Shown: positions 1-30,885, counted from the first letter of the stretch. The stretch: 64,000 bases of DNA from Candidatus Woesearchaeota archaeon (GCA_945861715.1 CAMAVK010000003.1:67344-131343); one strand, 5' to 3'. The notes: generated by a model not told the origin, from the letters alone. Numbers and translations: made by a program.

Positions 1-1062
1 CGAAACGACACAGCAATCAAAGAAACAAATCTCGTAGAAGAAGTTCTAACCAAAAACGAGCTTTGTAAGCAAAATGTAGCCACTTTATTTCAACAGCGCA
101 ATCAAATCGCAGCAACCTGGGCTCTAGAATCTGTGATGGAAAATCCAACGAGTATCGCATCTTATCGTGCAGCACTCCACGCGCTTCCACTAAACGCAGC
201 TTCGAGAGAAACAATACTTAAGGAGGTACTTCAACAATACCTCATACCAAACAATAATTGTGTAAGCCCAGAGCATTTGCAAACGCTCACATCCATTTTA
301 AATGTATACGCGAGAGCCAAACGTACCTATGACAAAACAAAAGATTTTATTTTTGAATACAATCAGCGTCTCGTTATCTCAATAGCAAGAAAGTATCTTC
401 ATCGAGGTCTTGATTACCTCGATCTCATTCAAGAGGGTAATGACCGAATGTTGCATGCTATGGAAAAATATGACCTCAATCGAGGAAATAAATTTAGTAC
501 TTATGCTACTTGGTGGATTCGTCAAGGTATAACAAGAGCCATTGCAGACCAAGGAAGAACGATACGAATTCCAGTTCATCTCTGCTCAAAATATAATGCT
601 CTTAATCAATTTACTAAAAACTATCGCAATGAGCATGGTCACAACCCATCTCCTGAAGAGGTCATGGCTGCGTTACATCTAACAAAAATAGCGTATGCCG
701 GGTTAACCCAAAATAATCCCACCTCATTACAGACAAAAATAGGTGATGATGACGGAGCGGAGTTAGGAAATCTTCTAGATGGAACAAAACCAGAAATGGA
801 GGGATTTGGAAAAATTCGAAGACCTGATGAAGCAGATCCTGAAAATTCCGGTGGTTTCAACGAAGTGATGGACCGAGCAGATTTAGACCCTCGGCAAAGA
901 CGAGTTCTAAGTTTACGTTTTGGGTCAGAAGGTGTTGATCACACCCTCGATGAAATAGGCCAGCTATTCGATCTCACCCGTGAACGGGTCCGTCAAATCG
1001 AAAAAAAAGCACTCGAGAAATTACAAAGAGCCTACGCAAGAGAAAGTTCGAAATCAAAATAA
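1..1062 (+). CDS. Sigma-70 family RNA polymerase sigma factor, 5' partial
   Basis: Bacterial-type primary-like sigma factor, which would direct RNA polymerase to promoters. The frame is open to the left window edge, so the GTG/ATG near 133 is probably internal and the N-terminus is missing. Counting from the edge, region 2 shows the 2.2 motif LIQEGN and the 2.3-2.4 block STYATWWIRQ plus ADQGRTIRIPVH. Region 3 follows (NPSPEEVM), and region 4 has LDEIGQLFDLTRERVRQIEKK, the classical -35 recognition helix-turn-helix, of which only part is quoted here: DLTRERVRQIE. All three core domains look intact. Archaea normally use TBP/TFB, and this window is full of TATA promoters. Complete sigma factors have been reported in a few uncultivated archaea from single-cell genomes. 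Whether it binds the archaeal polymerase is unknown. Confidence 0.93.
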   Translation, partial: RNDTAIKETNLVEEVLTKNELCKQNVATLFQQRNQIAATWALESVMENPTSIASYRAALHALPLNAASRETILKEVLQQYLIPNNNCVSPEHLQTLTSILNVYARAKRTYDKTKDFIFEYNQRLVISIARKYLHRGLDYLDLIQEGNDRMLHAMEKYDLNRGNKFSTYATWWIRQGITRAIADQGRTIRIPVHLCSKYNALNQFTKNYRNEHGHNPSPEEVMAALHLTKIAYAGLTQNNPTSLQTKIGDDDGAELGNLLDGTKPEMEGFGKIRRPDEADPENSGGFNEVMDRADLDPRQRRVLSLRFGSEGVDHTLDEIGQLFDLTRERVRQIEKKALEKLQRAYARESSKSK

Positions 1063-19387: not shown

Positions 19388-21703
19388 ATGGAGAAAATTA
19401 TGATCAAAAAATTCATCACCCCTATAATATTTTGTGTGGTACTTGCAATCTCAGTTTTCGCGCTTCCAAATTTAACTCCGCCGCAACCCTCCCCAACTTC
19501 TACGGGTGCAAGTACCGGCGTAAGTACGCTTCCAACTCCCTCTGAATATCTTAAAATTAGCGATGGCCTTGCCATACCACCGAGTCAAATAAACTATCTA
19601 TTTAAAGGCGCATCAATAACCACCAGGTGTGGAACTGACGGTTGTTCTCAAGGGGAAATAGACTCTTTCACTTATACTGATTTGCTCATGGTGCCAGCAG
19701 GCGATGGTTCCACATGGCAAAAAGTTTCAGATGCTCCAGCTGGAACGCCTTCATCTATGAGGTTTATTGATGGGGGAAATGCAGTGCAATTTCCCGATAA
19801 GACTGTAGAAGTGTTTGGAATTAAAGGAGATCAAAATCATATTGATCTCGCAACTTATGAACGAAATAAAGCGAGCCTTGCAAGGGGTGCGCCTTCGAAT
19901 CCCAAGGAAGAGAAATATCATATCCCGCAGGCAGTCGCAACGAGTGCTAAGACTGTGCAGCAAGTTCATGAAGAAATGGTTAAAGATGTTGCGCAAAAAT
20001 TAGGTATTGATACTAGTTCAAAAAATACCCAAGAACTTCTAGTCGAAATTAGCAACAAGGCCAGGTATGCGGTAGGGGGAAATGCAGGTAATTTATACTT
20101 GAACGCAGGGAAAACTATAGATTACTCAGTCAGTACTCCTGCAAGCGCCCTTACATCTTTGACTACTATTGATGGAAAAGTAATAACCTCCAATCAGCTT
20201 CAGGGGGGAATAAGACAAATAAAAATTAATAATATTCAAGAAAGACTCATTCTTCCAGATGGGACTCCTCTTGATAAAGAATTTCAATTAACTACATGTG
20301 GGAGCGGTGAAAGCAATTGTATTGTTAGAAATGCTAAAACGGGTGAAGAATATAAAGTAACCTTCAATTCGGTTGAAGGCAACAAACAGTATATTATTGA
20401 CCATGGGACTGGTGATGAAAGGGAAATTAAAAAAATTACTGAGCGTCCCGATGGAAAAGTCACCGAGATTACAAAAGGCAATGATGACAATGAAATAGAA
20501 TCTATAACCGTTACCGATGAAGGAGGAAAAGTAATTGCCAAAAAAAACAATGACCTTCTAGATGGAGATAATAAATTCTCCTTTTATGAACTTCTTGATG
20601 AAAAAGGAAATGTTATTGGTATCTGCAAGGATAGCAGTAAATGTGATGGCTCCCCAAATAACAATGCAAACATCTATTCTTCATCTGACGGTTTAACTTG
20701 TACTGGTTCACATGATGTGTGTTACGTTGAAAAAAGGGACAAGGAGGGAAAACCGTTTATCGACCGAAGTGCTGCCTGGCAACCTTGTGAAGGAAAACCT
20801 AATTGCGCTGAGGCCGTGGATCGTGTGACACCTTTATTTGGATCTAACTTACAAAAAGGTGGGATTTTTGCAAAAGATTCTGTTTGGAGTACCTACATCT
20901 CTGATCCAGAATATGGAAAACGTATTGGTATGGTAATGAGTGTCCGTCCAGGCTATGAAGGTGTTTTAAGTAGATTATTTGGAAAAGATAACGTTCTATT
21001 TGAAGAACAAGCTAAGGATTTCTTAAATAATTGGCCAACAATCGACAAAGTTACTGCAAGGGCTTGCGACCTTGATAATAAAGTATCCAGTGATGGATCC
21101 GCTGCTATTATGATTGATGTTGGTGCAGGACAAGTACAATCTGTAGCTTCACTATTTGCTGAGAAATCACCCTCGTCAACTCCTGCACTCTGTGCCTCAG
21201 ACGTTCCATGTTCCAAAGGAGAATGTCATGATGATGGAATTTGTTATGATGAAAACGGAGTTGTGGAAGCAAACTTGTACAAGATAAATTGGATGGTGAA
21301 GGCACCTGCAGATGAAAAATCAACACCCAAAGTTGATGAAGACGGATACCCTATCAGTTATAATATACAAATTCGGGGTGGACCAGAGGGTCCGTTATAT
21401 CTTTATCCAGCCGATTCCTTTGGCAGTAAGTCTACATTACGTTTAAAAAATGGAGAAACCGACAAGGATTTGTATATTACCTATTCCCCTATTGATTACA
21501 CTGAAATCTGTTTGCTCTTCGAGAATGGCCCCTTAGATTTAAATACAGAAATACTTGATAATGATAGAGAAGAAATAACCGAAGTCTGCACTGATTTCGC
21601 AACCACCGCACCAGGTTCCAATCCCTTCGGTTCCGACATCAGCTCAGGATCATCTGGTCAACCATCCCAACGTGTAGCAGACGTCGGACGAAAGAATATC
21701 TAG
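19388..21703 (+). CDS. Secreted surface protein; its 3' end is repeated downstream
   Basis: 771 residues. The signal peptide is MIKKFITPIIFCVVLAISVF; an in-frame ATG at 19400 is an alternative start. Pro/Thr-rich linker follows. The middle holds short beta repeats of the YD type, such as KKITERPDGKVTEITKG and ITVTDEGGKVIAKKN. The later part is Cys-rich (CASDVPCSKGECHDDG). The C-terminus is SSGSSGQPSQRVADVGRKNI. This 20-residue tail and the following DNA recur at 22393 and 23218, with nearly all changes synonymous. The tail might be a sorting or assembly signal. The gene forms an operon with the two preceding surface genes. Confidence 0.75.
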   Translation: MEKIMIKKFITPIIFCVVLAISVFALPNLTPPQPSPTSTGASTGVSTLPTPSEYLKISDGLAIPPSQINYLFKGASITTRCGTDGCSQGEIDSFTYTDLLMVPAGDGSTWQKVSDAPAGTPSSMRFIDGGNAVQFPDKTVEVFGIKGDQNHIDLATYERNKASLARGAPSNPKEEKYHIPQAVATSAKTVQQVHEEMVKDVAQKLGIDTSSKNTQELLVEISNKARYAVGGNAGNLYLNAGKTIDYSVSTPASALTSLTTIDGKVITSNQLQGGIRQIKINNIQERLILPDGTPLDKEFQLTTCGSGESNCIVRNAKTGEEYKVTFNSVEGNKQYIIDHGTGDEREIKKITERPDGKVTEITKGNDDNEIESITVTDEGGKVIAKKNNDLLDGDNKFSFYELLDEKGNVIGICKDSSKCDGSPNNNANIYSSSDGLTCTGSHDVCYVEKRDKEGKPFIDRSAAWQPCEGKPNCAEAVDRVTPLFGSNLQKGGIFAKDSVWSTYISDPEYGKRIGMVMSVRPGYEGVLSRLFGKDNVLFEEQAKDFLNNWPTIDKVTARACDLDNKVSSDGSAAIMIDVGAGQVQSVASLFAEKSPSSTPALCASDVPCSKGECHDDGICYDENGVVEANLYKINWMVKAPADEKSTPKVDEDGYPISYNIQIRGGPEGPLYLYPADSFGSKSTLRLKNGETDKDLYITYSPIDYTEICLLFENGPLDLNTEILDNDREEITEVCTDFATTAPGSNPFGSDISSGSSGQPSQRVADVGRKNI

Positions 21704-21815
21704 TGCAAGGCACAACTTCCCACTGTTCAACCATAAGTGCACATCCTGCGCCACACAATAAGCCAAGATAAGAAGTCGAAGTAGCCCTTCGTGCAACATG
21801 ATAATGTGAAACCCT
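21635..21815 (+). repeat. Tail repeat, copy 1 (gene 3' end plus about 110 bp)
   Basis: Contains the last codons of the 19388-21703 gene, its TAG, then conserved non-coding DNA. Mini-hairpins GTGC-AAG-GCAC just after the stop and a GCAC/GTGC-type pair near the right end frame the segment. It ends in a GTGAAA ribosome-binding site directly before the ATG of the Fic/Doc gene. Confidence 0.8.
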
Positions 21816-22217
21816 ATGGCAAAAGAAATCTGGTACCCAACTGAAGAACGTATCATTGAGCTTAACGCGCTCATACTCACGGTAATTAGAGCTAAGAAAA
21901 AAGATCAAATCAAAGTTTTAAGCATGCCTAAACTGAGGGAAATTGTGGCCAAAGCTATCTCTTATGATGGGGATATCTATGACAAAGCTGCCATTTTGCT
22001 CACCGGAATTACTAGACAACATCCGTTTAGTAGTGGTAACCGCCGAACCGCATTCATAGCTGCAAAAGATTTTCTCACGCAAAACCATACTGTTTGTAAG
22101 ATCCCTGATAGTCCAGACTTATCAAGAGTTTTATTAGGAGTACGAGAAGGTTTTTATAAGATTGAAGAAATCAAAGAATGGATACAATATGGCAAAATTA
22201 GAGAATTTAAACGATAG
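21816..22217 (+). CDS. Fic/Doc family protein (toxin-like AMPylase/kinase)
   Basis: 133 residues, the length of Doc toxins. The core motif is HPFSSGNRRTAF (consensus HPFxxGNxR), at residues 68-79. Fic enzymes transfer AMP or phosphate to target proteins. Doc-type members inactivate EF-Tu and are held by a partner antitoxin. The usual acidic residue before GN is Ser here, as in some divergent members. The start codon lies directly at the right end of tail-repeat copy 1, whose GTGA serves as ribosome-binding site. A 40-residue ORF overlaps its 3' end and may be the antitoxin. Confidence 0.85.
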   Translation: MAKEIWYPTEERIIELNALILTVIRAKKKDQIKVLSMPKLREIVAKAISYDGDIYDKAAILLTGITRQHPFSSGNRRTAFIAAKDFLTQNHTVCKIPDSPDLSRVLLGVREGFYKIEEIKEWIQYGKIREFKR

Positions 22218-22311
22218 GGAAAAATCTAAACTTGTAACATCTGAGTTAGCATACTTTCGCGAATTAATTCGAGGTCATGAGAAATTATTACAAGCGATAG
22301 GAGAGTTGTAA
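22189..22311 (+). CDS. Micro-protein overlapping the Fic gene (candidate antitoxin)
   Basis: 40 residues, starting MAKLENLNDREKSK and ending GHEKLLQAIGEL. It overlaps the Fic reading frame by 29 bp in another frame, which suggests translational coupling. It is predicted as one or two amphipathic helices. Small helical partners of this kind commonly block Fic/Doc active sites. No homology is recognised, so the role is inferred from position only. Confidence 0.45.
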   Translation: MAKLENLNDREKSKLVTSELAYFRELIRGHEKLLQAIGEL

Positions 22312-22333
22312 AAGCTCCAATTCATTCGGCTCA

Positions 22334-22385
22334 AGTCATGAACGAGTTCACATTCATGACTGTGCTGAAAGAGAACACCTCTTTC
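22334..22385. repeat. Two perfect hairpins at the right end of cassette 1
   Basis: AGTCATGAA (22334-22342) pairs with TTCATGACT (22353-22361). GAAAGAG (22367-22373) pairs with CTCTTTC (22379-22385) around AACAC. They lie between the Fic cassette and tail-repeat copy 2, and may be terminators or recombination-site structures. Confidence 0.65.
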
Positions 22386-22392
22386 ATGCACC

Positions 22393-22576
22393 GACATATC
22401 ATCAGGTTCCGCTGGCCAACCATCTCAACGTGTGGCAGATGTAGGACGAAAGAATATCTAGTGCAAGGCACAACTTCCCACTGTCCAATCATAAGTACAG
22501 ATATCCTGCTTCCAATTTAATATCAAATCTCAACGGTCGATGTAGCACCCCGTGCAACTTGTAAATGTGAACCACC
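22393..22576 (+). repeat. Tail repeat, copy 2
   Basis: Encodes, without an upstream gene body, the same tail DISSGSAGQPSQRVADVGRKNI minus its context and the TAG. Of ten codon differences to copy 1, nine are synonymous. The 24 bp after the stop are identical to copy 1. The right end supplies GTGAACC just before the ATG of the RelE-like gene, matching copy 1's layout. Confidence 0.8.
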
Positions 22577-22837
22577 ATGTATCAGATAATAATCTCGAAG
22601 AAAGTAGAAAAATTTCTAGATCAGTTAAATAATGTAGAATACAAACGAATACTAAACCGAATTGAAAAATTGCAAGAAAATCCTATGCATTATCTAGAAC
22701 TTAAAGGTGACACCTGGGTTGAAAAAGCAGGACGATCAGGTTATCGAATCGCAGTAGAGATTAAAGAACAAGAAAAAATCGTTGAGATCATATTCATTCA
22801 AAAAAGATCAAAGTTTTACGAACAATTTAACGTTTAG
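22577..22837 (+). CDS. RelE/ParE superfamily toxin-like protein
   Basis: 86 residues with the RelE/ParE fold pattern: an N-terminal strand (YQIIISKKVEKFLDQL), two helices, then strands with LKGDTWVEKAGRSGYRIAVEI, where the basic G-x-x-R-I/L segment is typical, and a final IVEIIFIQKRSKFYE. RelE-type toxins cut ribosome-bound mRNA; ParE-type toxins block gyrase. The start codon sits at the end of tail-repeat copy 2. It converges with and overlaps by 11 bp a minus-strand gene with its own promoter, a likely antitoxin. Confidence 0.82.
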   Translation: MYQIIISKKVEKFLDQLNNVEYKRILNRIEKLQENPMHYLELKGDTWVEKAGRSGYRIAVEIKEQEKIVEIIFIQKRSKFYEQFNV

Positions 22838-23012
22838 CACGCTTGGCCTTATAGGAATCTAAAGAACAGGATTCTCCTAACATCAATTGTTTCCGACCTT
22901 CTTTTACTCCTTGTGAAAATTCAATTTCTTCAAGAAGCTTAGCACTAGCTTGCAAGTGAGAGCGCAAATCCTGCACATCCTTTTTCCTAACCAAAAGCAT
23001 ATCCGAATCCAT
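22827..23012 (-). CDS. Candidate antitoxin convergent with the RelE-like gene
   Basis: 61 residues (start MDSDMLLVRKKDVQDL, end LDSYKAKRAKR). It is helical, acidic in the middle and basic at the end, like small RelB-type antitoxins from archaea. TATATAAAG-type sequence (complement of about 23034-23043) sits about 25 bp before the ATG, so it is leaderless and probably expressed. The perfect 14-bp palindrome at 23055-23068 lies just upstream and could be an autoregulatory operator. Convergent toxin-antitoxin arrangement is unusual. The partner assignment is inferred from position. Confidence 0.55.
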   Translation of the reverse strand: MDSDMLLVRKKDVQDLRSHLQASAKLLEEIEFSQGVKEGRKQLMLGESCSLDSYKAKRAKR

Positions 23013-23054
23013 ATCTACTCAATATTCGCAAGCTATATAAAGATTACTTCCCAC

Positions 23055-23068
23055 ATTTTAATTAAAAT
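23055..23068 (-). promoter_or_regulatory. 14-bp perfect palindrome upstream of the antitoxin promoter
   Basis: ATTTTAATTAAAAT lies about 12 bp upstream of the TATA box of the 23012 gene. A palindrome at this place fits an operator for a dimeric antitoxin, although its A/T-only composition weakens the case. Confidence 0.4.
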
Positions 23069-23085
23069 AGAAGTTCGGATCAGAC

Positions 23086-23222
23086 ATATTCCGCGCAGTT
23101 TGTGGAATATATAACGGAGTATTTCCCATTATTATCTGAAAGGCGCAACAAATCAAATCATAATTTGCATCTTTCAGTACACAGACAAACGATGAGTTCA
23201 ATCGTTTGTATCGTGTCTCATC
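23086..23222. repeat. Inverted repeats at the right end of cassette 2
   Basis: ATATTCC (23086-23092) pairs with GGAATAT (23104-23110). GATGAG (23191-23196) pairs with CTCATC (23217-23222), the last overlapping the start of tail-repeat copy 3. No credible gene lies between 23013 and 23560. The region holds these structures, the tail repeat and the promoter of the BRO gene. Confidence 0.5.
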
Positions 23223-23422
23223 AGGTTCCGCAGGGCAACCATCCCAACGTGTCGCAGACGCTTGCCGTAAGGCAAGTGCGGAACGTAGTGACTGCATGGG
23301 ACGAAAAAATATTTAGTGCAAAGCACAAAGGGTGGAAGTGAGATCATAAGTGCAGATCCTGCATAGTACATACCAACAGAAGTGTAAACCCATCGAAGTA
23401 GCACTTCGTGCAACATGATAAT
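23218..23422 (+). repeat. Tail repeat, copy 3, with a 36-nt in-frame insertion
   Basis: Encodes SSGSAGQPSQRVAD, then 13 foreign codons (23260-23298, replacing one Val codon), then GRKNI and TAG. Apart from the insertion all codon differences to copy 2 are synonymous. The insertion carries the hairpin CTTGCC-GTAA-GGCAAG (23261-23276). The right end keeps GAAGTAGCACTTCGTGCAAC as in copy 1, but no start codon follows. Confidence 0.78.
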
Positions 23423-23560: not shown

Positions 23561-24106
23561 ATGGATTCCAAAAATGCACTCGTTGTATTTCAAGGGAAAG
23601 ATATTAGACGAACATGGTTTAATGATGAGTGGTGGTTTGTTGCGACTGATATTATTGCAGTATTAACAGATTCCAGGGATCCAACTGGATATCTTAAAGA
23701 TATGCGCAGACGCGATGAAGGATTTTCACAAGGGTGGGGGCAAATTGCCACCCCCCTTTTAATTTCCACAACTGGAGGTAATCAAAATCTTAATTGTGTC
23801 TCTACAAAAGGAGCCTTCCGTCTTATCCAATCCATCCCCTCTCCCAAAGCAGAACCATTTAAGCAATGGCTTGCACAAGTGGGATATGAACGAATCCAAG
23901 AAATAGAAAACCCTGAGCTTGCGCAAAAAAGAACAAGAGATCTCTACAAAGCTAAAGGGTACTCAGAGCAATGGATAGAAAAGAGAATAAGAGGAATCGC
24001 AATCCGCGACGAGTTAACGGAAGCAAGAAATACAGCAGCGACTGTATTTATGCACAGAAATGAGATATTTTTCTCATTTCTCGTGAATGAAAAAAGAGAG
24101 ATGTGA
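23561..24106 (+). CDS. BRO-N family protein, N-terminal part of a split gene
   Basis: 181 residues. The BRO-N domain is clear: ALVVFQGKDIRRTWFNDEWW, FVATDIIAVLTDS, then NCVSTKGAFRLIQSIPSPKAEPF. Family members (about 280 residues) continue from RGIAIRDELT into a C-terminal part that is found here in another frame at 24103. After DELT the sequence runs into unrelated residues (ARNTAATVFMHRN) from an insertion of about 65 bp containing a 10-bp perfect hairpin. BRO proteins are phage or virus-type DNA-binding regulators. The gene is probably inactivated, or works as two chains. Confidence 0.85.
   Translation: MDSKNALVVFQGKDIRRTWFNDEWWFVATDIIAVLTDSRDPTGYLKDMRRRDEGFSQGWGQIATPLLISTTGGNQNLNCVSTKGAFRLIQSIPSPKAEPFKQWLAQVGYERIQEIENPELAQKRTRDLYKAKGYSEQWIEKRIRGIAIRDELTEARNTAATVFMHRNEIFFSFLVNEKREM
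24056..24081. repeat. Perfect 10-bp hairpin inside the BRO gene insertion
   Basis: AGAAATGAGA (24056-24065) and TCTCATTTCT (24072-24081) with loop TATTTT. It lies in the stretch (about 24019-24085) that separates the two halves of the BRO family protein. Confidence 0.75.
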
Positions 24107-24456
24107 AAACCGACCGAGAGTTTGCCATACTCACTGCAGAAATTAGTAAAGCGACCTTCGGCATGACACCAAGTGAATACAAAGATTTCAAAGGGCTAAA
24201 AAAAGAAAATTTGAGGGACCATATGGGTGATTTGGAGCTGATCTTTAGCATGCTCGGAGAAGCATCTACTACCCAAATTGCTAGAGGTAAACATGCTCGA
24301 GGGTTTATAGAAAATCAAGAAGCAGCCCAAGAAGGTGGTACTGTCGCAGGAAAAGCAAGAGAAGACCTTGAGGCAAGAAGCGGTAAAAAAATCGTAACCC
24401 CTGAAAACTTTCTTCTACAACCAGAATCAAGAAAAAGGCTAGAAAAGAAGAAATAA
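24103..24456 (+). CDS. BRO family protein, C-terminal part of a split gene
   Basis: 117 residues from a GTG that overlaps the stop of the N-terminal part by four bases (ATGTGA), so translational coupling is possible. The sequence EFAILTAEISKATFGMTPSE, then YKDFKGLKKENLRDHM, DLELIFSMLGEASTT and a Gly/Ala-rich AQEGGTVAGKAREDLE is the standard second half of the BRO/antirepressor-like family. Just before the GTG, GAA-TGA-AAA-AAG reads as the expected E-W-K-K with Trp TGG changed to TGA. Confidence 0.8.
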   Translation: MKTDREFAILTAEISKATFGMTPSEYKDFKGLKKENLRDHMGDLELIFSMLGEASTTQIARGKHARGFIENQEAAQEGGTVAGKAREDLEARSGKKIVTPENFLLQPESRKRLEKKK

Positions 24457-24459
24457 CCC

Positions 24460-25023
24460 CTACTTCATATACCTATAAATCGGCTGTTGCTCCGTCACTG
24501 TTTCTTTATTTGCAAGCCGAGCAAGAACATATAACAAGTCCGATAGTCGGTTCAAATATTGCAACACACAAGGATCAAACGAATACACCGAACCGAGTCG
24601 AAGAACATCCCTCTCCGCCCGACGTGCAACCGTTCGCGCAAGATGCAGCGAACACGCAGTAGGAGTCCCATTAGGCAACAAAAAACTTTTCTGCTCAACT
24701 AAGCGAGATGAAACAGCATCAATTTTTCTCTCCAACTCCGCAACATGATCAAAGGTGATGTGTGGAGCTTTCACCCGCGACATATCCTTTAAACTCATCA
24801 GTGAAATATCCGCACCCAATGAAAACAATTCATGCTGAACCGAAGTCAACATTTCTACGATTTCACCACATTCAGACTGAGCATGACACATCGCAACACC
24901 AAGAAGTGAATTTAATTCATCAACAGTACCAACTGCTTCAATACGTTGATCTGTTTTAGGAACTCTCTCTCCCGAAAACGTAGACGTACACCCATCATCT
25001 CCCGTCTTCGTATAAATCTTCAT
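24460..25023 (-). CDS. Cob(I)alamin adenosyltransferase, PduO type
   Basis: 187 residues. It transfers adenosyl from ATP to cob(I)alamin to make adenosylcobalamin. N-terminal KIYTKTGDDGCTSTF and the ATP-binding VGTVDELNSLLG, plus C-terminal ARRAERDVLRL and LNRLSDLLYVLAR, match the PduO family. The start at 25023 is chosen because AGGTGA precedes it; a GTG nine bases upstream lies inside that site. It is 48 bp downstream of one B12-dependent ribonucleotide reductase and near a second, so it probably supplies their cofactor from salvaged cobalamin; no corrin biosynthesis gene is present in the window. Confidence 0.93.
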   Translation of the reverse strand: MKIYTKTGDDGCTSTFSGERVPKTDQRIEAVGTVDELNSLLGVAMCHAQSECGEIVEMLTSVQHELFSLGADISLMSLKDMSRVKAPHITFDHVAELERKIDAVSSRLVEQKSFLLPNGTPTACSLHLARTVARRAERDVLRLGSVYSFDPCVLQYLNRLSDLLYVLARLANKETVTEQQPIYRYMK

Positions 25024-25071
25024 ACATTTCACCTATTTTAAATTTCTACCTACACCGGTAATTCACCACAG

Positions 25072-27129
25072 TCAGCTCATCCCATCGCCAACCGTGATTA
25101 CCTGATCTTCATAACTCCCGTCGCGATAAATCGTAATTCCTTTACACTTCGACTTCCATGCCAGCATGTATGCCTCTTCCACATCCCGAATCGCAGCAGT
25201 GCGAGGGAAATTAATTGTTTTTGAAATGGAATTATCAACATACTTTTGCAAAGTAGCCTGCATTTTAATATGCCACACTGGTTCAATATCTTGAGCAGTA
25301 ACAAACACATCACGAACATCTTTTGGAATCTCTTTAATATATTTGAGAGTTCCAGCCTTACTTACTTTCCAAATTAACTCCGAAGAATAAAAACCTCGTT
25401 CCCGTGCCACCTTTTCAAAGTCAGTATTCAAATACACAATCTCATTGGTCCCAAGTACCGTTCGTTGATATGAAATAGCAAACAAAGGCTCACACCCAGC
25501 AGAACAACCAGCTAATATAGACCTCGTCCCAGTAGGCGAAAGAGCAAGACACGTTGCGTTACGCATTTTGCGCCCAGCAGTCTCATGATCCGACCCTTTA
25601 AATGCAGGAAATACCCCGCGCGAGGCAGCCAATTCCTGCGAAGCACCATACGCCTTTGCTTTAATAAATGACATCACCTTCTCAGCAAACGCCAGTCCCG
25701 CTTCAGAATCATACTTAATTCCTAAGCGAACAAACGCATCTGCAAAACCCATCAATCCTAACCCAACCTTTCGTGTTCGCAAACAAGCATCTCGAATCGA
25801 ATCAATTGGATACTGTGTCATATCAAGCGCGTTATCTAAAAAATGAATTGCGGTAGCCACAGCTTGGCCAAGCGCCGAGTAATTAATATCAACGGCAGCC
25901 AAGTCAACAAACTTTGACAAATCAATAGAACCAAACATGCATCCTTCATAAGGAAGCAGAGGTGCTTCAGCACATTGATTGGTCGTCTCAATTTCACCCA
26001 AATGTTTACATGGATGTCGCTTATTAATCTCATCAATAAAAACTAATCCAGGGTCTCCCGTCTTCCATGCATTTTGTGTAATGACAGAAAAAATATCCCG
26101 AGCACGCAATTTCCCCACGTACTTTTCTGTACGTGGATTAAAAATAACATAATCACGGTCGTCTTCAACCGCTTTCATAAAACGATCCGTCACACCAACT
26201 GAAATATTAAAATTTTTCAGTGACCTCTTATCATGCTTAGCCTCAATAAAACGTAAAATATCAGGATGATCAACACGCAACACCGCCATATTAGCCCCTG
26301 GTCGAATTCCTCCTTGCTTCACAATTTCAAGCGCCGCATCATACACTCTAAGAAACGCTACTGGACCACCAGCTACGCCTGAGTGATGTTTCACTGGATC
26401 ATGCTTTGGTCGCAATCGTGAAAAAGAAAATCCTGTTCCTGCTCCACGTTGATGTAAAATTGCCGCCGTTTGAAGTGTCCCAAAAATAGATTCCATCGTA
26501 TCATCAATGGGCAATACAAATGAAGCAGGAAGCAATTGATTTTTTGTACCCGCATTCATCAATGTTGGGGTATTCGGTAAAAATATTAGTGATGCAAGTA
26601 AATAATAAAATCGATCCCGTGTTTGCGCAATAGCAGCCGCATCTGCACCATATTTAGCATCAGCTGACGCGATATTTGCAGCAATCCGGTCAAGCATATC
26701 CTTAGGCGTCTCCCGTAGAGTACCCGCCGCATCCTTACCTAAATACCGCCTCTCCAAAATAGTAAGTGCTTCACTCGAAAAATGTAAATTGTCATCAGGA
26801 TGCTCATCTCCCAATATCAGTGCTCTTTTCTCACGTTCCTGCGCCTTCTTATATCGAAACAAAATATACGCTTTCGCCGTTCGAGCATGTCCCTTTTCAA
26901 TCAGAATTTTTTCAACTAAATCTTGAACATCTTCAACACTAAACGATCGAGTCGCAAATTTCTTCTCCAGCTCAATTACCAAATCTTGAGTTAGTTTTTC
27001 CGAAAGAGTCCTATCTTTTCCACCAACAGATTCTGCTGCTTTAAAAATTGCATCCGTAATCTTGCTCACACTAAACGGAACTCTGCGACCATCTCGCTTC
27101 ACAATCGTTTGAATAGTAATTTCAGGCAT
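25072..27129 (-). CDS. Adenosylcobalamin-dependent ribonucleotide reductase-like protein, Cys-to-Ser variant
   Basis: 685 residues of class II ribonucleotide reductase. An ATP-cone is at residues 5-95 (IVKRDGRRVPFSVSKI). Catalytic-barrel motifs are QRGAGTGFSFSRLRP, GGIRPGANMAVLRVDHPDI, NFNISVGVTDRFM, ETTNQCAEAPLLPYEGC (thiyl-radical Cys and one redox Cys) and LSPTGTRSILAGCSAG. At the first redox-Cys position, usually SACFVLP, this protein has ASFVLP, Ser codon 26521-26523. The active-site dithiol pair therefore appears incomplete, so the activity or reductant may differ. It is likely in one unit with the adenosyltransferase gene. Confidence 0.92.
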   Translation of the reverse strand: MPEITIQTIVKRDGRRVPFSVSKITDAIFKAAESVGGKDRTLSEKLTQDLVIELEKKFATRSFSVEDVQDLVEKILIEKGHARTAKAYILFRYKKAQEREKRALILGDEHPDDNLHFSSEALTILERRYLGKDAAGTLRETPKDMLDRIAANIASADAKYGADAAAIAQTRDRFYYLLASLIFLPNTPTLMNAGTKNQLLPASFVLPIDDTMESIFGTLQTAAILHQRGAGTGFSFSRLRPKHDPVKHHSGVAGGPVAFLRVYDAALEIVKQGGIRPGANMAVLRVDHPDILRFIEAKHDKRSLKNFNISVGVTDRFMKAVEDDRDYVIFNPRTEKYVGKLRARDIFSVITQNAWKTGDPGLVFIDEINKRHPCKHLGEIETTNQCAEAPLLPYEGCMFGSIDLSKFVDLAAVDINYSALGQAVATAIHFLDNALDMTQYPIDSIRDACLRTRKVGLGLMGFADAFVRLGIKYDSEAGLAFAEKVMSFIKAKAYGASQELAASRGVFPAFKGSDHETAGRKMRNATCLALSPTGTRSILAGCSAGCEPLFAISYQRTVLGTNEIVYLNTDFEKVARERGFYSSELIWKVSKAGTLKYIKEIPKDVRDVFVTAQDIEPVWHIKMQATLQKYVDNSISKTINFPRTAAIRDVEEAYMLAWKSKCKGITIYRDGSYEDQVITVGDGMS

Positions 27130-27280
27130 GAAACATAAATACCTCCCTTACTATAAAAACCTTCTTTCCTATTAATTCGCCACCCATTTGGGACATAATC
27201 TATCTAAAATAAATTAATTTGACTACTGACAAGTAAAAACAATCAAAACCTTCATAAATAACATAACCTAAAAAACAAAT

Positions 27281-27619
27281 ATGGCAAGAATAACTCTTCA
27301 AAAAAATGAACAAATAATCACCAGTCTAGATGCAGAAACACCTGACATCAAAGTCAGTTATACCGAGACAGAAAGTGGTCTATGGGTTCAAAAATATCAT
27401 GCGACTCTATCATATGCATCAACCCATCCAAACTGGGGTCCAACCATTCAAGATCAGTGGAACATAACTGACCTCATTGAACAACCACGAGTAGGATATG
27501 AATGGGAAAGAGTTATACCAAAATTTATCTCTCTCACAAGAACGGCGTATGAAAATTTGGATATGCGCTGTCCTGAACTCGAACAAAAAACAAAATATGA
27601 AAAAAATAAGAAAAAATAA
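27281..27619 (+). CDS. Hypothetical protein
   Basis: 112 residues, no family recognised. The central part has Trp/Tyr-rich strands (SGLWVQKYHATLSYA, HPNWGPTIQDQWN). The C-terminus is Lys-rich (KTKYEKNKKK). No signal peptide. It is the only plus-strand gene between the two reductase genes and has TATA-like AAATAACATAA sequence upstream. Low conservation evidence. Confidence 0.5.
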   Translation: MARITLQKNEQIITSLDAETPDIKVSYTETESGLWVQKYHATLSYASTHPNWGPTIQDQWNITDLIEQPRVGYEWERVIPKFISLTRTAYENLDMRCPELEQKTKYEKNKKK

Positions 27620-27633
27620 AAATATCAATCTAT

Positions 27634-30600
27634 CTAACTGCATCCACTCGTCTCGCCACACACTTCGCAAAGCATACACGTACCATTGCGTCGCATTTGT
27701 GCAGCCCCACATCCACTGCATTTCTGTTTTCCTTCTGATACCGCATTCGGCATAAACACGGTCGTTGATGAAACAACCTTCGCAGGCACGTTTAACTTCA
27801 CAGGTGCAGATACACTCGCATTCAAATGAACCGCAGCAGATTCAAAGTCCTCCAAGAACAATGACAACTCTTCAATGATTGGATGTCCTTCAACCTTAAT
27901 GGATGCTGCAATCGCTCGTGGGGCCAAACCAGACTTCAAACCAAAGTTCACACTATTAACCAGAGCCTGAAGCATTGACTGCTGAACCGGAGTCAACACA
28001 TCCATAGTAAGCGCAACAGATAACAAAAGCTCTCCTTCAACGCGACCTTTAATCATCACCGATTGCCGACCCACTTTAACTTTATGACGAACCTCAGCAA
28101 CCACATTTTCCTTCTCCGAAGTTGCCTCCGCAAGCAATTCTTTCAACTCAGGAAATTCTTCAAGTGTGGTATTAAGCGGTTGCGAAAGCTTAGATCCATC
28201 TCGATACAATGCCGTTGCTTTAATCATCATCGTCCATGCATCATAGTATGCTTGTTTAATTTGCGCAACTGTCCAGTCTCGAGGCATGTTAATTGTTTTA
28301 CTAATCGCCCCGGAAATAAATGGCTGAACTGCAGCAAGCATATGAAGATGTCCATAGGGATGAATGTAGCGTGTACCCTTCTTACCACATTTATTTGCAC
28401 AATCAAAAATCGGGTAATGCTCCTCAAGTAAATGTGGGGCCCCCTCAAGAGTTTGCGAACCACAAATAAAATCATTTGCTTCATCAATTTGCGCATCCGT
28501 AAACCCAAGCGCAGACAATACGTCCATCTTTTGCTTCCCATTCATAATTGAATTATATGTCTGCTCACCTAAATTCCCTACATGAAACGTAAAGCGAATA
28601 TCCATTGCATTCCGTAAATCCTTCTCAGCAACAAGAATTTGCGAATCAGATAACCCACGAGATCGTAGACTAGCCCGATTAACATGCGGTGCTCCTTCAA
28701 ATGTAGCATGACCTAAACAGTGTCCAATGATATCGCTAATTTGCGACGCACTATATCCTTGGCGCGTAAGAGCCATGGGTACCGATTGATTTACAATTTT
28801 AAAGTATCCACCACCTGCAAGTTTTTTGAATTTGACAAGACTGTAATCAGGTTCAACTCCTGTAGTATCACAGTCCATAACCAAACCAATTGTACCAGTT
28901 GGAGCAATAACTGTTGTTTGTGCATTGCGATATCCATACTTCTCACCAAGGGCAAGCGCACGATCCCACGAATCATGTGTCGCAGTAAGCAATGGCTCGG
29001 GACATAAAGTCTGATTGAGCGCTCGTGGACGAATAGATAATTCTTCATAATCTTCCGATCCAAACGCGGCTCTGCGATGATTTCGAATAACCCGCAACAT
29101 ACTCTCGCGATTCGTCTCAAATCTCTCAAACGGCCCAAGTGTGCATGCCATCTCAGCGGACGTTGCATACGAATCCCCAGTCATAATTCCAGCAAGTGCA
29201 CCAGCCATAGAACGACCTAAATCAGAATCATATGGAACCCCTTGTAACATCAAAAGCGTCCCCATATTTGCATATCCAAGCCCCAGAGTCCGATACTCAA
29301 ACGATTTCTGCGCAATAGTTTCGGATGGGAAATGCGCCATCAAAACCGAAATTTCAAGTGCAATAGTCCACATACGAATCGCATGACGATATCCGACTAT
29401 ATCAAATCCTCGCGCCTCATCATAAAATCGTGCAAGATTTATGGATGCTAAATTACACGCAGTATCATCTAAAAACATATACTCACTGCATGGGTTTGAG
29501 CCGTTGATACGCCCATCAGTCGGACAAGTATGCCATTCATTAATGGTTGTATCATATTGAACCCCAGGGTCAGCCGACGCCCACGCGCAATATCCAATAT
29601 CATCCCATAATTTTTGCGCAGATATAGACCTAATTGTTTCTCCATTTGTTCGACCTTTCAAATCCCACATCGCATTACTATGCAATGCCTCATAGAATGC
29701 ATTTGGAATTCGAATAGAGTTATTACTATTTTGTCCCGACACCGTCAAATACGCTTCAGATTCATAATGCGTATCAAACTTTTGCAATGGCAACGTATAT
29801 CCTTGTCGTGCTAAATCTAATGCACGCACTAGATAATTAATTGGAATATGTTCACGAGCAGCCTTTTTCAACAGCACCCTAACCTCGGGATCTGCAAGCG
29901 GATTTTCCTTTCCTTTTGCTTTTTCAATAACAGCTCCTAGATGTTGCGATAAAATTTGAGAGCCAGATACTAAATCTGCAACTTTTTCTTCTTCCCGAAC
30001 TTTCCACCAAATAAATTGTTCAATCTCTGGATGATCCATATCAAGTGATACCATCTTTGCTGCTCGCCTTGTAGTTCCACCCGATTTTATCGAACCCGCT
30101 GCCGTATCAAATATCTTTAAAAAACTCATGAGCCCTGATGACGTTCCACCACCTGTAAGACGTTCCCCTTTTCCTCTAACCCGTGAGAAATTAGACCCTG
30201 TCCCTGAGCCATATTTAAACACTCGTGCTTCCCGTGTAAGTAACGAAAAAATTCCCCCATCCCGCACTAAATCATCATTGACATATTGAATAAAACATGC
30301 GTGTGGTTGTGATCGTGTATATGCATCCTTAGAGAACTCTAACTTTTTAGTCTGGGGATCAACAAAACTGTGTCCCTGAGCAGGTCCCTTAAGACCGTAG
30401 GCAAAATTAAGACCCGTTGTGAACCATTGAGGTGAATTAGGTGCAGCATATTGACCTATAATCATAAATACCATCTCATCATAAAATATTTGAGCATCCT
30501 GCACACTACTAAAATAATTATATTTTTCTCCCCACAATCTCCAGCAACCGGCAATGCGGTGCGCAACTTGTTTAATAGAAGTTTCAGATCCAGTAATCAC

Positions 30601-30879
30601 CTTACCATTTTCATCAAGAAGTAAATCTCCGCGTTCATTTCGAAGTGGGACACCTGCCTTTCGAAAATACTTCTGGGCAAGAATATCGGTTGCTACCTGG
30701 CTCCAAAAGTGTGGTACTTCCACATCATCCATCTGAAAAACCGTTGATCCATCCGGATTTCGAATCATGGACGTTCGTCGGTCATATGTATACATATCAA
30801 ACGGATGTACCCCATCCTTCGTAAAATATCGAGGGATCTGTAGCCCAGCTTTATCAACAGAAGTAATTTTAGTTTTCAT
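27634..30879 (-). CDS. nrdJ: Adenosylcobalamin-dependent ribonucleotide reductase (class II)
   Basis: About 1081 residues. It reduces ribonucleotides to deoxyribonucleotides with a B12-derived radical. No ATP-cone at the N-terminus. Motifs: QPHACFIQYVNDD (first redox Cys present), GSGTGSNFSRVRGKGE, GGTTRRAAKMVSLDMDHPEI, GSNPCSEYMFLDDTACNLASI (radical Cys and partner Cys), VIAPTGTIGLVMDCDTTGVE, and a C-terminal Cys motif NGTCMLCEVCGETSGCS that shuttles electrons. The start is the third of GTG-ATG-ATG codons after a strong GAGGTG. With all key Cys intact, this is probably the working enzyme, while the 685-residue paralog is degenerate or specialised. Confidence 0.95.
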   Translation of the reverse strand: MKTKITSVDKAGLQIPRYFTKDGVHPFDMYTYDRRTSMIRNPDGSTVFQMDDVEVPHFWSQVATDILAQKYFRKAGVPLRNERGDLLLDENGKVITGSETSIKQVAHRIAGCWRLWGEKYNYFSSVQDAQIFYDEMVFMIIGQYAAPNSPQWFTTGLNFAYGLKGPAQGHSFVDPQTKKLEFSKDAYTRSQPHACFIQYVNDDLVRDGGIFSLLTREARVFKYGSGTGSNFSRVRGKGERLTGGGTSSGLMSFLKIFDTAAGSIKSGGTTRRAAKMVSLDMDHPEIEQFIWWKVREEEKVADLVSGSQILSQHLGAVIEKAKGKENPLADPEVRVLLKKAAREHIPINYLVRALDLARQGYTLPLQKFDTHYESEAYLTVSGQNSNNSIRIPNAFYEALHSNAMWDLKGRTNGETIRSISAQKLWDDIGYCAWASADPGVQYDTTINEWHTCPTDGRINGSNPCSEYMFLDDTACNLASINLARFYDEARGFDIVGYRHAIRMWTIALEISVLMAHFPSETIAQKSFEYRTLGLGYANMGTLLMLQGVPYDSDLGRSMAGALAGIMTGDSYATSAEMACTLGPFERFETNRESMLRVIRNHRRAAFGSEDYEELSIRPRALNQTLCPEPLLTATHDSWDRALALGEKYGYRNAQTTVIAPTGTIGLVMDCDTTGVEPDYSLVKFKKLAGGGYFKIVNQSVPMALTRQGYSASQISDIIGHCLGHATFEGAPHVNRASLRSRGLSDSQILVAEKDLRNAMDIRFTFHVGNLGEQTYNSIMNGKQKMDVLSALGFTDAQIDEANDFICGSQTLEGAPHLLEEHYPIFDCANKCGKKGTRYIHPYGHLHMLAAVQPFISGAISKTINMPRDWTVAQIKQAYYDAWTMMIKATALYRDGSKLSQPLNTTLEEFPELKELLAEATSEKENVVAEVRHKVKVGRQSVMIKGRVEGELLLSVALTMDVLTPVQQSMLQALVNSVNFGLKSGLAPRAIAASIKVEGHPIIEELSLFLEDFESAAVHLNASVSAPVKLNVPAKVVSSTTVFMPNAVSEGKQKCSGCGAAQMRRNGTCMLCEVCGETSGCS

Positions 30880-30885
30880 CATCAC

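Follow-up and report, generated by a model that had tools for sequence, protein, structure and literature searches.

Background

Integrative elements, among them archaeal ones found in tRNA genes and in protein genes, often restore the 3′ end of the gene they target. For immunity arrays of the type VI secretion system (T6SS) in Vibrio, and for orphan 3′ modules of Rhs and contact-dependent inhibition loci, displacement by homologous and homology-facilitated illegitimate recombination has been proposed (Kirchberger et al. 2017, PMC5361080). Integrons, and clusters of attC sites lacking integron integrases (CALINs), occur in Archaea (Ghaly et al. 2022, PMC9668308). Here we describe an array within a window of 64,000 nt (the whole stretch of DNA analysed, with positions counted from its first letter) from a 1.3-Mb genome of Candidatus Woesearchaeota (G000), in which copies of the 3′ end of a surface-protein gene alternate with toxin-antitoxin-like modules. 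Our reading, held with moderate confidence, is that this gene end serves as a lineage-wide acquisition site, where a gene end and a module are gained together by homology and older ones are displaced. The array resembles a fossil record in which modules were acquired one after another with no dedicated integrase.

The locus resembles T6SS and Rhs arrays in its heterogeneous modules, its lack of an integrase, the relics of the host gene's 3′ part lying between modules and, on our reading, the placement of new modules at the 3′ side of the gene with older ones pushed downstream. It differs from them in that the host is an archaeal surface gene with a constant end, the relic being that gene's own end and not an effector, and in that the modules are separate intracellular toxin-antitoxin types past the stop codon, not effector-immunity pairs that form fusions with the host gene or are exported alongside it. 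With CALINs it shares an array built of small genes, frequently of toxin-antitoxin type, in which a repeated element accompanies every gene and no integrase lies nearby, and with integrons and CALINs generally the exchangeability of cassettes (arrays of the window and of relative G167; relatives G020/G070 and G033/G035). Unlike in those systems, the repeat is a genus-specific coding gene end, the spacer folds no better than shuffled sequence and no integron integrase is found. As with integrative elements, the duplicated end keeps the host gene intact, whereas the modules carry no integrase gene, vary in tail length and come as one to three modules of few genes. Core-gene defence hotspots (defence islands of E. 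coli and Pseudomonas) likewise combine conserved flanks with variable defence or toxin-antitoxin content; gene-end relics between modules set the present locus apart, although the reported hotspots were not checked for such relics.

Tail copies and modules in the window

Downstream of the surface gene, three tail copies and three modules follow one another as listed below (ORF, open reading frame).

19388–21703, + strand: surface gene (secreted, Cys-rich protein), host of the tail; 771 aa, its conserved C-terminal domain being the family marker
21633–21815, + strand: tail copy 1, comprising the final ~23 codons of the intact gene and ~110 nt up to the Doc start codon
21816–22217, + strand: module 1, Doc/Fic-family toxin gene; 133 aa, HPFSSGNRR
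22189–22311, + strand: 40-aa ORF overlapping the end of Doc, which by position may be an antitoxin
22335–22390, + strand: two stem-loops immediately 5′ of tail copy 2 (fold z −4.0)
22391–22576, + strand: tail copy 2, a putatively displaced or imported gene end with spacer and no gene attached
22577–22837, + strand: module 2, ParE/RelE-like toxin gene; 86 aa
22827–23012, − strand: 61-aa convergent ORF, candidate module 2 antitoxin by position and size
23184–23210, + strand: strong stem-loop immediately 5′ of tail copy 3 (fold z −4.4 to −4.9)
23216–23422, + strand: tail copy 3, with a 36-nt in-frame insert at 23260–23295
23561–24456, + strand: module 3, BRO-family gene in two overlapping ORFs (23561–24106 and 24103–24456)

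The copies are direct repeats with spacings of 758 and 819–856 nt, each consisting of the last ~21–23 codons, the stop codon and about 105–110 nt past it. The coding part reads SSGSSGQPSQRVADVGRKNI in copy 1 and SSGSAGQPSQRVADVGRKNI in copy 2, while copy 3 has SSGSAGQPSQRVADA, then 12 codons, then MGRKNI, each ending at the stop codon. Pairwise identity over the ~105 nt after the stop was 75, 75 and 67%, with scores unmatched by any of 500 shuffles. The first-pass annotation of this DNA had reported three direct tail copies, hairpins 5′ of copies 2 and 3, and a ribosome-binding site at the end of copies 1 and 2 directly before an ATG. The copies were recovered at 21633, 22391 and 23216 and the hairpins with z of −4.0 and −4.4; copies 1 and 2 do run up to start codons (21816 and 22577), but the putative ribosome-binding site is weak, being only GTGA ~10 nt upstream. 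A Shine-Dalgarno match at the gene-module junction is missing in most related loci, and retention of the tail for this signal is not supported. Strong pre-tail hairpins were limited to the window locus and relative G013 and are thus no general feature.

Tail DNA was present in its own genome in just three copies, all of them local. Among 60 relatives, 59 gave no match and one (G037) a match of 25 nt only; viral contigs gave none, and on these searches a dispersed or viral repeat was rejected. Rfam and tRNA scans returned no matches. The insert in copy 3 (36 nt, in frame) forms a hairpin (CTTGCCGTAAGGCAAG), and over 25 nt it is 96% identical to sequence in G037, a genome from a different family, for which reason it may be a small mobile repeat.

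The module types named in the first-pass annotation, Fic/Doc and RelE/ParE, stand. The Doc/Fic gene exceeded both Pfam and NCBIfam cut-offs (PF02661, E = 3e-9; TIGR01550 DOC_P1, 41.8 against a cut-off of 38.65), and the ParE/RelE-like gene fell just below its own (PF05016, 22.4 bits against 23, E = 2e-4). The BRO gene (PF02498, Bro-N, 54 bits, above cut-off), which follows copy 3, had been missed, as had the 36-nt insert in that copy. Type II toxin-antitoxin family matches across the window and relatives comprised Doc, HepT/nucleotidyltransferase pairs, AbiEi/AbiEii and ParE pairs. The antitoxins of the window modules are putative assignments by position; the 61-aa convergent ORF had no family match in Pfam or NCBIfam. 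In relative G024 a Doc gene 57% identical to that of the window lies directly 3′ of the orthologous surface gene, together with an overlapping small partner (54% identity over 37 aa). The BRO gene of the window is split, as is the copy at the same locus in G020, while most relatives have one ORF of ~285–310 aa; the split may be frameshift decay or a programmed shift.

The surface protein had no family in Pfam or NCBIfam searches. Homologues were found in 30 of 60 relatives and, with profile A2, in most family genomes; the relatives matched by the surface-protein profile are metagenome-assembled genomes (MAGs) of Woesearchaeota/Nanoarchaeota. A contig scan using the single surface protein as query returned no matches, and no viral contig searched encoded a relative of the surface domain. 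All comparisons were made with MAGs, several loci being cut by contig ends; the tail copies are divergent and therefore not simple assembly duplicates.

Recurrence of the pattern in related archaea

Regions downstream of the orthologous surface gene were retrieved at 46 further loci, giving a total of 47, which were tabulated from simple ORF calls. At 23 of them a gene for a ~270-aa membrane protein starts within ~100 nt of the surface-gene stop (22 recognised by profile match, one by position), and none of these 23 carries a tail copy. At 14 of the 47 loci other genes stand ahead of the membrane gene; at the other 10 the searches did not detect it. Genes recognisable as toxin-antitoxin or defence types were present at 19 of the 24 non-abutting loci (HEPN/nucleotidyltransferase, Fic, BRO, ParE/YoeB-like, AbiE, PIN, AAA/DUF4143, DUF1016 and DUF4258), with a few of the module-type matches under Pfam cut-offs.

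A tail copy lies beyond the module in G011 (AAA/DUF4143), G013 (AbiE), G020 (BRO) and G006 (HEPN pair), and in G167, from another family, two extra tails form a three-tail array with HEPN/nucleotidyltransferase and Doc modules. By eye, the apparent last codons of a Doc gene stand just 5′ of the displaced tail in G006. A downstream copy of the gene's own end was found for 6/45 surface genes compared with 1/424 other ORFs of the same loci (Fisher p = 3.7e-6), the sole control hit being a low-complexity match. These controls were chosen after the pattern had been seen, and the ORF control was run once at nucleotide and once at peptide level. The peptide-level run gave five control matches, four of them weak or low-complexity and one real: in G002 (L055), beyond a HEPN-like pair and ~1.15 kb past the membrane gene, the next operon gene has its end repeated at 44% aa identity, which is what displacement of an old, divergent allele end would be expected to leave.

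No sequence common to the gene ends of different genera was seen by inspection. To judge from the ends compared, each lineage uses its own gene end: the pattern recurs, the DNA repeat does not. The first-pass annotation had proposed looking for the tail followed by other small genes in the genome and relatives, and would have counted against its reading a repeat occurring only here and with constant content in all relatives. The DNA repeat is indeed confined to this locus; the phenomenon is not, since tails with different modules were also found elsewhere, both in further genera and in a second family.

A separate observation concerns G016 (L056), in which a 160-nt direct repeat of post-stop DNA (+6..+164 and +835..+994) surrounds an AbrB-like/PIN pair.

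Tail copies as former gene ends

Copies 2 and 3, to neither of which a gene is attached, differ at seven positions, and all seven differences are third-position and synonymous (p = 5e-4). When gene ends and displaced copies were pooled across six loci, 10, 12 and 32 differences fell on codon positions 1, 2 and 3, respectively (p = 8e-5); this test is approximate, one member of most pairs being still under selection, a reservation from which the comparison of copies 2 and 3 is free. Clear indels were all multiples of three (36 nt in the window; 3 and 9 nt in G167). Because the differences are mostly third-position and the indels keep the frame, the copies, on this sequence pattern, were once the ends of working genes; neither recent duplication nor an attachment site without coding function would be expected to produce it. 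The same bias and in-frame indels, with the amino acid divergence in G002, mark the relics as coming from divergent alleles and not from recent duplication.

Gain or loss, exchange and enrichment of modules

Gain or loss of modules between relatives, which the first-pass annotation had proposed to look for, was seen in two congeners: G070 has the arrangement gene-RelBE and G020 gene-BRO-tail-RelBE. Between the two, +761..962 of G020 matches −20..+180 of G070 at 92%, in an alignment that takes in the displaced tail and RelBE. The pair would fit an order in which the newest module lies closest to the surface gene, but excision in G070 is just as likely. A swap was found in G033 (L046) and G035 (L043), of related genera, where two complete tandem surface genes with common flanks (81–86% nt) enclose different HEPN/nucleotidyltransferase pairs, the intervening genes differing in both sequence and orientation.

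In the 4 kb that follow the surface gene, taken over 41 family genes, we counted five HepT-like genes (0.22 expected), four BRO genes (0.32) and two Fic genes (0.31), with expectations taken from gene numbers in 49 family genomes; since module genes cluster, Poisson probabilities are indicative only. A locus-specific BRO lineage was not supported, as copies elsewhere scored equally high in a search with the BRO C-terminus, and BRO genes at the locus would thus have been recruited from a genome-wide pool.

Proposed displacement and alternative explanations

What is observed is the array, its recurrence with different modules, codon-constrained copies, empty and filled congeners and module enrichment; how recombination proceeded, which way displacement ran and which donors took part we infer. 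In the proposed sequence of events, a module would arrive from a related archaeon together with the donor's own version of the same gene end. Homologous recombination within the gene end would link the incoming piece to the resident gene, and its other side would be joined by illegitimate recombination or through Campbell-type integration of a circular molecule. With the surface gene kept intact, the older gene end and any module behind it would be left downstream, and repeated rounds would build gene-[module]-tail-[module]-tail-[module]. Displacement would account for intact host genes, coding-like tails, variable length and the lack of a common site sequence, as well as for the restriction to the surface gene and its operon neighbour and for exchange between close relatives. 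Once in place, the modules are probably maintained in a transcribed operon like any other addiction or defence genes. The first-pass annotation had further suggested that they may stabilise the surface-protein locus.

Several findings weigh against displacement. Filled loci are mostly without a tail copy, no donor bearing the window's tail sequence was found among the searched genomes, and tail 2 of G020 is closer to that genome's own tail 1 than to the tail of G070. Furthermore, tail length at the peptide level is 20–25 codons in 6/8 copies from four genera (that of the window, L042, L054 and L136), a regularity that exceeds that of random illegitimate breakpoints and keeps a site-specific mechanism alive.

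In such a mechanism, a XerA-like or unknown enzyme acting in trans would insert module circles and the element would recreate the gene end. We consider this unlikely, but some findings speak for it: besides the length regularity, the gene end is regenerated in every case, the stop codon marks where copies end, hairpins lie 5′ of some copies (copies 2 and 3 of the window; G013) and modules lack their own integrase, like integron cassettes. Set against this are the absence of a common sequence at the gene ends of different genera, the range of copy lengths (~7 codons in G020, 57 in G011, the whole gene in G033 and G035) and tail and spacer regions that fold no better than shuffles. The genome's sole detected tyrosine recombinase is XerA-like (XerA_Arch, 211 bits against a cut-off of 220) and not an integron integrase (175 against 265), and no dedicated recombinase was found in a search that covered tyrosine recombinases only. 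An archaeal cassette-capture variant, in which the last 20–25 codons of the surface gene would be an attachment site read by position or structure and not by a sequence common to the genera, with a XerA-type enzyme or some unknown recombinase handling toxin-antitoxin cassettes in trans, seems to us improbable. Of the first-pass proposal that modules insert at the gene tail and bring a tail copy, the accumulation of modules and their far-side tails hold up, whereas the integron-like, site-specific mechanism is not supported: there is no shared site, repeat length varies, the tail regions fold no better than shuffles and, of the recombinase in trans that it had proposed to look for, the XerA-like enzyme was the only tyrosine recombinase detected.

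A tandem duplication that took in the complete surface gene, with modules lying between the copies and with later loss of the extra gene bodies down to their ends, would fit the two complete genes with HEPN/nucleotidyltransferase between them in G033 and G035, and former full genes would show codon-constrained tail divergence. It is nevertheless rather unlikely, given that the short copies all start within the last 178 nt, where uniform truncation of a 2.3-kb gene would place them with a probability of ~1e-9, that tblastn shows no decayed body upstream, and that G020/G070 requires just one insertion or excision. Preservation of tail and spacer as a regulatory or structured RNA (a leader or ribosome-binding context for module genes) would suit a spacer conserved in three copies and the start codons at the ends of copies 1 and 2; with no Rfam match, spacer folding no better than that of shuffles and a Shine-Dalgarno match at the junction in few relatives only, we regard it as very unlikely. 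A near-copy of the surface gene's 3′ end downstream also recalls the template repeat of a diversity-generating retroelement. The substitutions are third-position, not concentrated at template adenines, and no reverse transcriptase was noticed near the locus (a genome-wide search was not made), which leaves this explanation with almost no likelihood.

Small DPANN genomes commonly carry toxin-antitoxin modules, whose entry route is poorly known. At the surface gene each acquisition seems to leave a host gene end behind, from which order, donor distance and turnover could be read, and displacement would extend the logic of bacterial effector arrays to uncultured archaea. As module gain appears tied to a conserved surface-protein operon, module location is testable through strain comparison.

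Farther downstream in the window (24460–30885), a cobalamin adenosyltransferase gene lies beside two different B12-dependent ribonucleotide reductase genes, an unusual doubling for a small genome.

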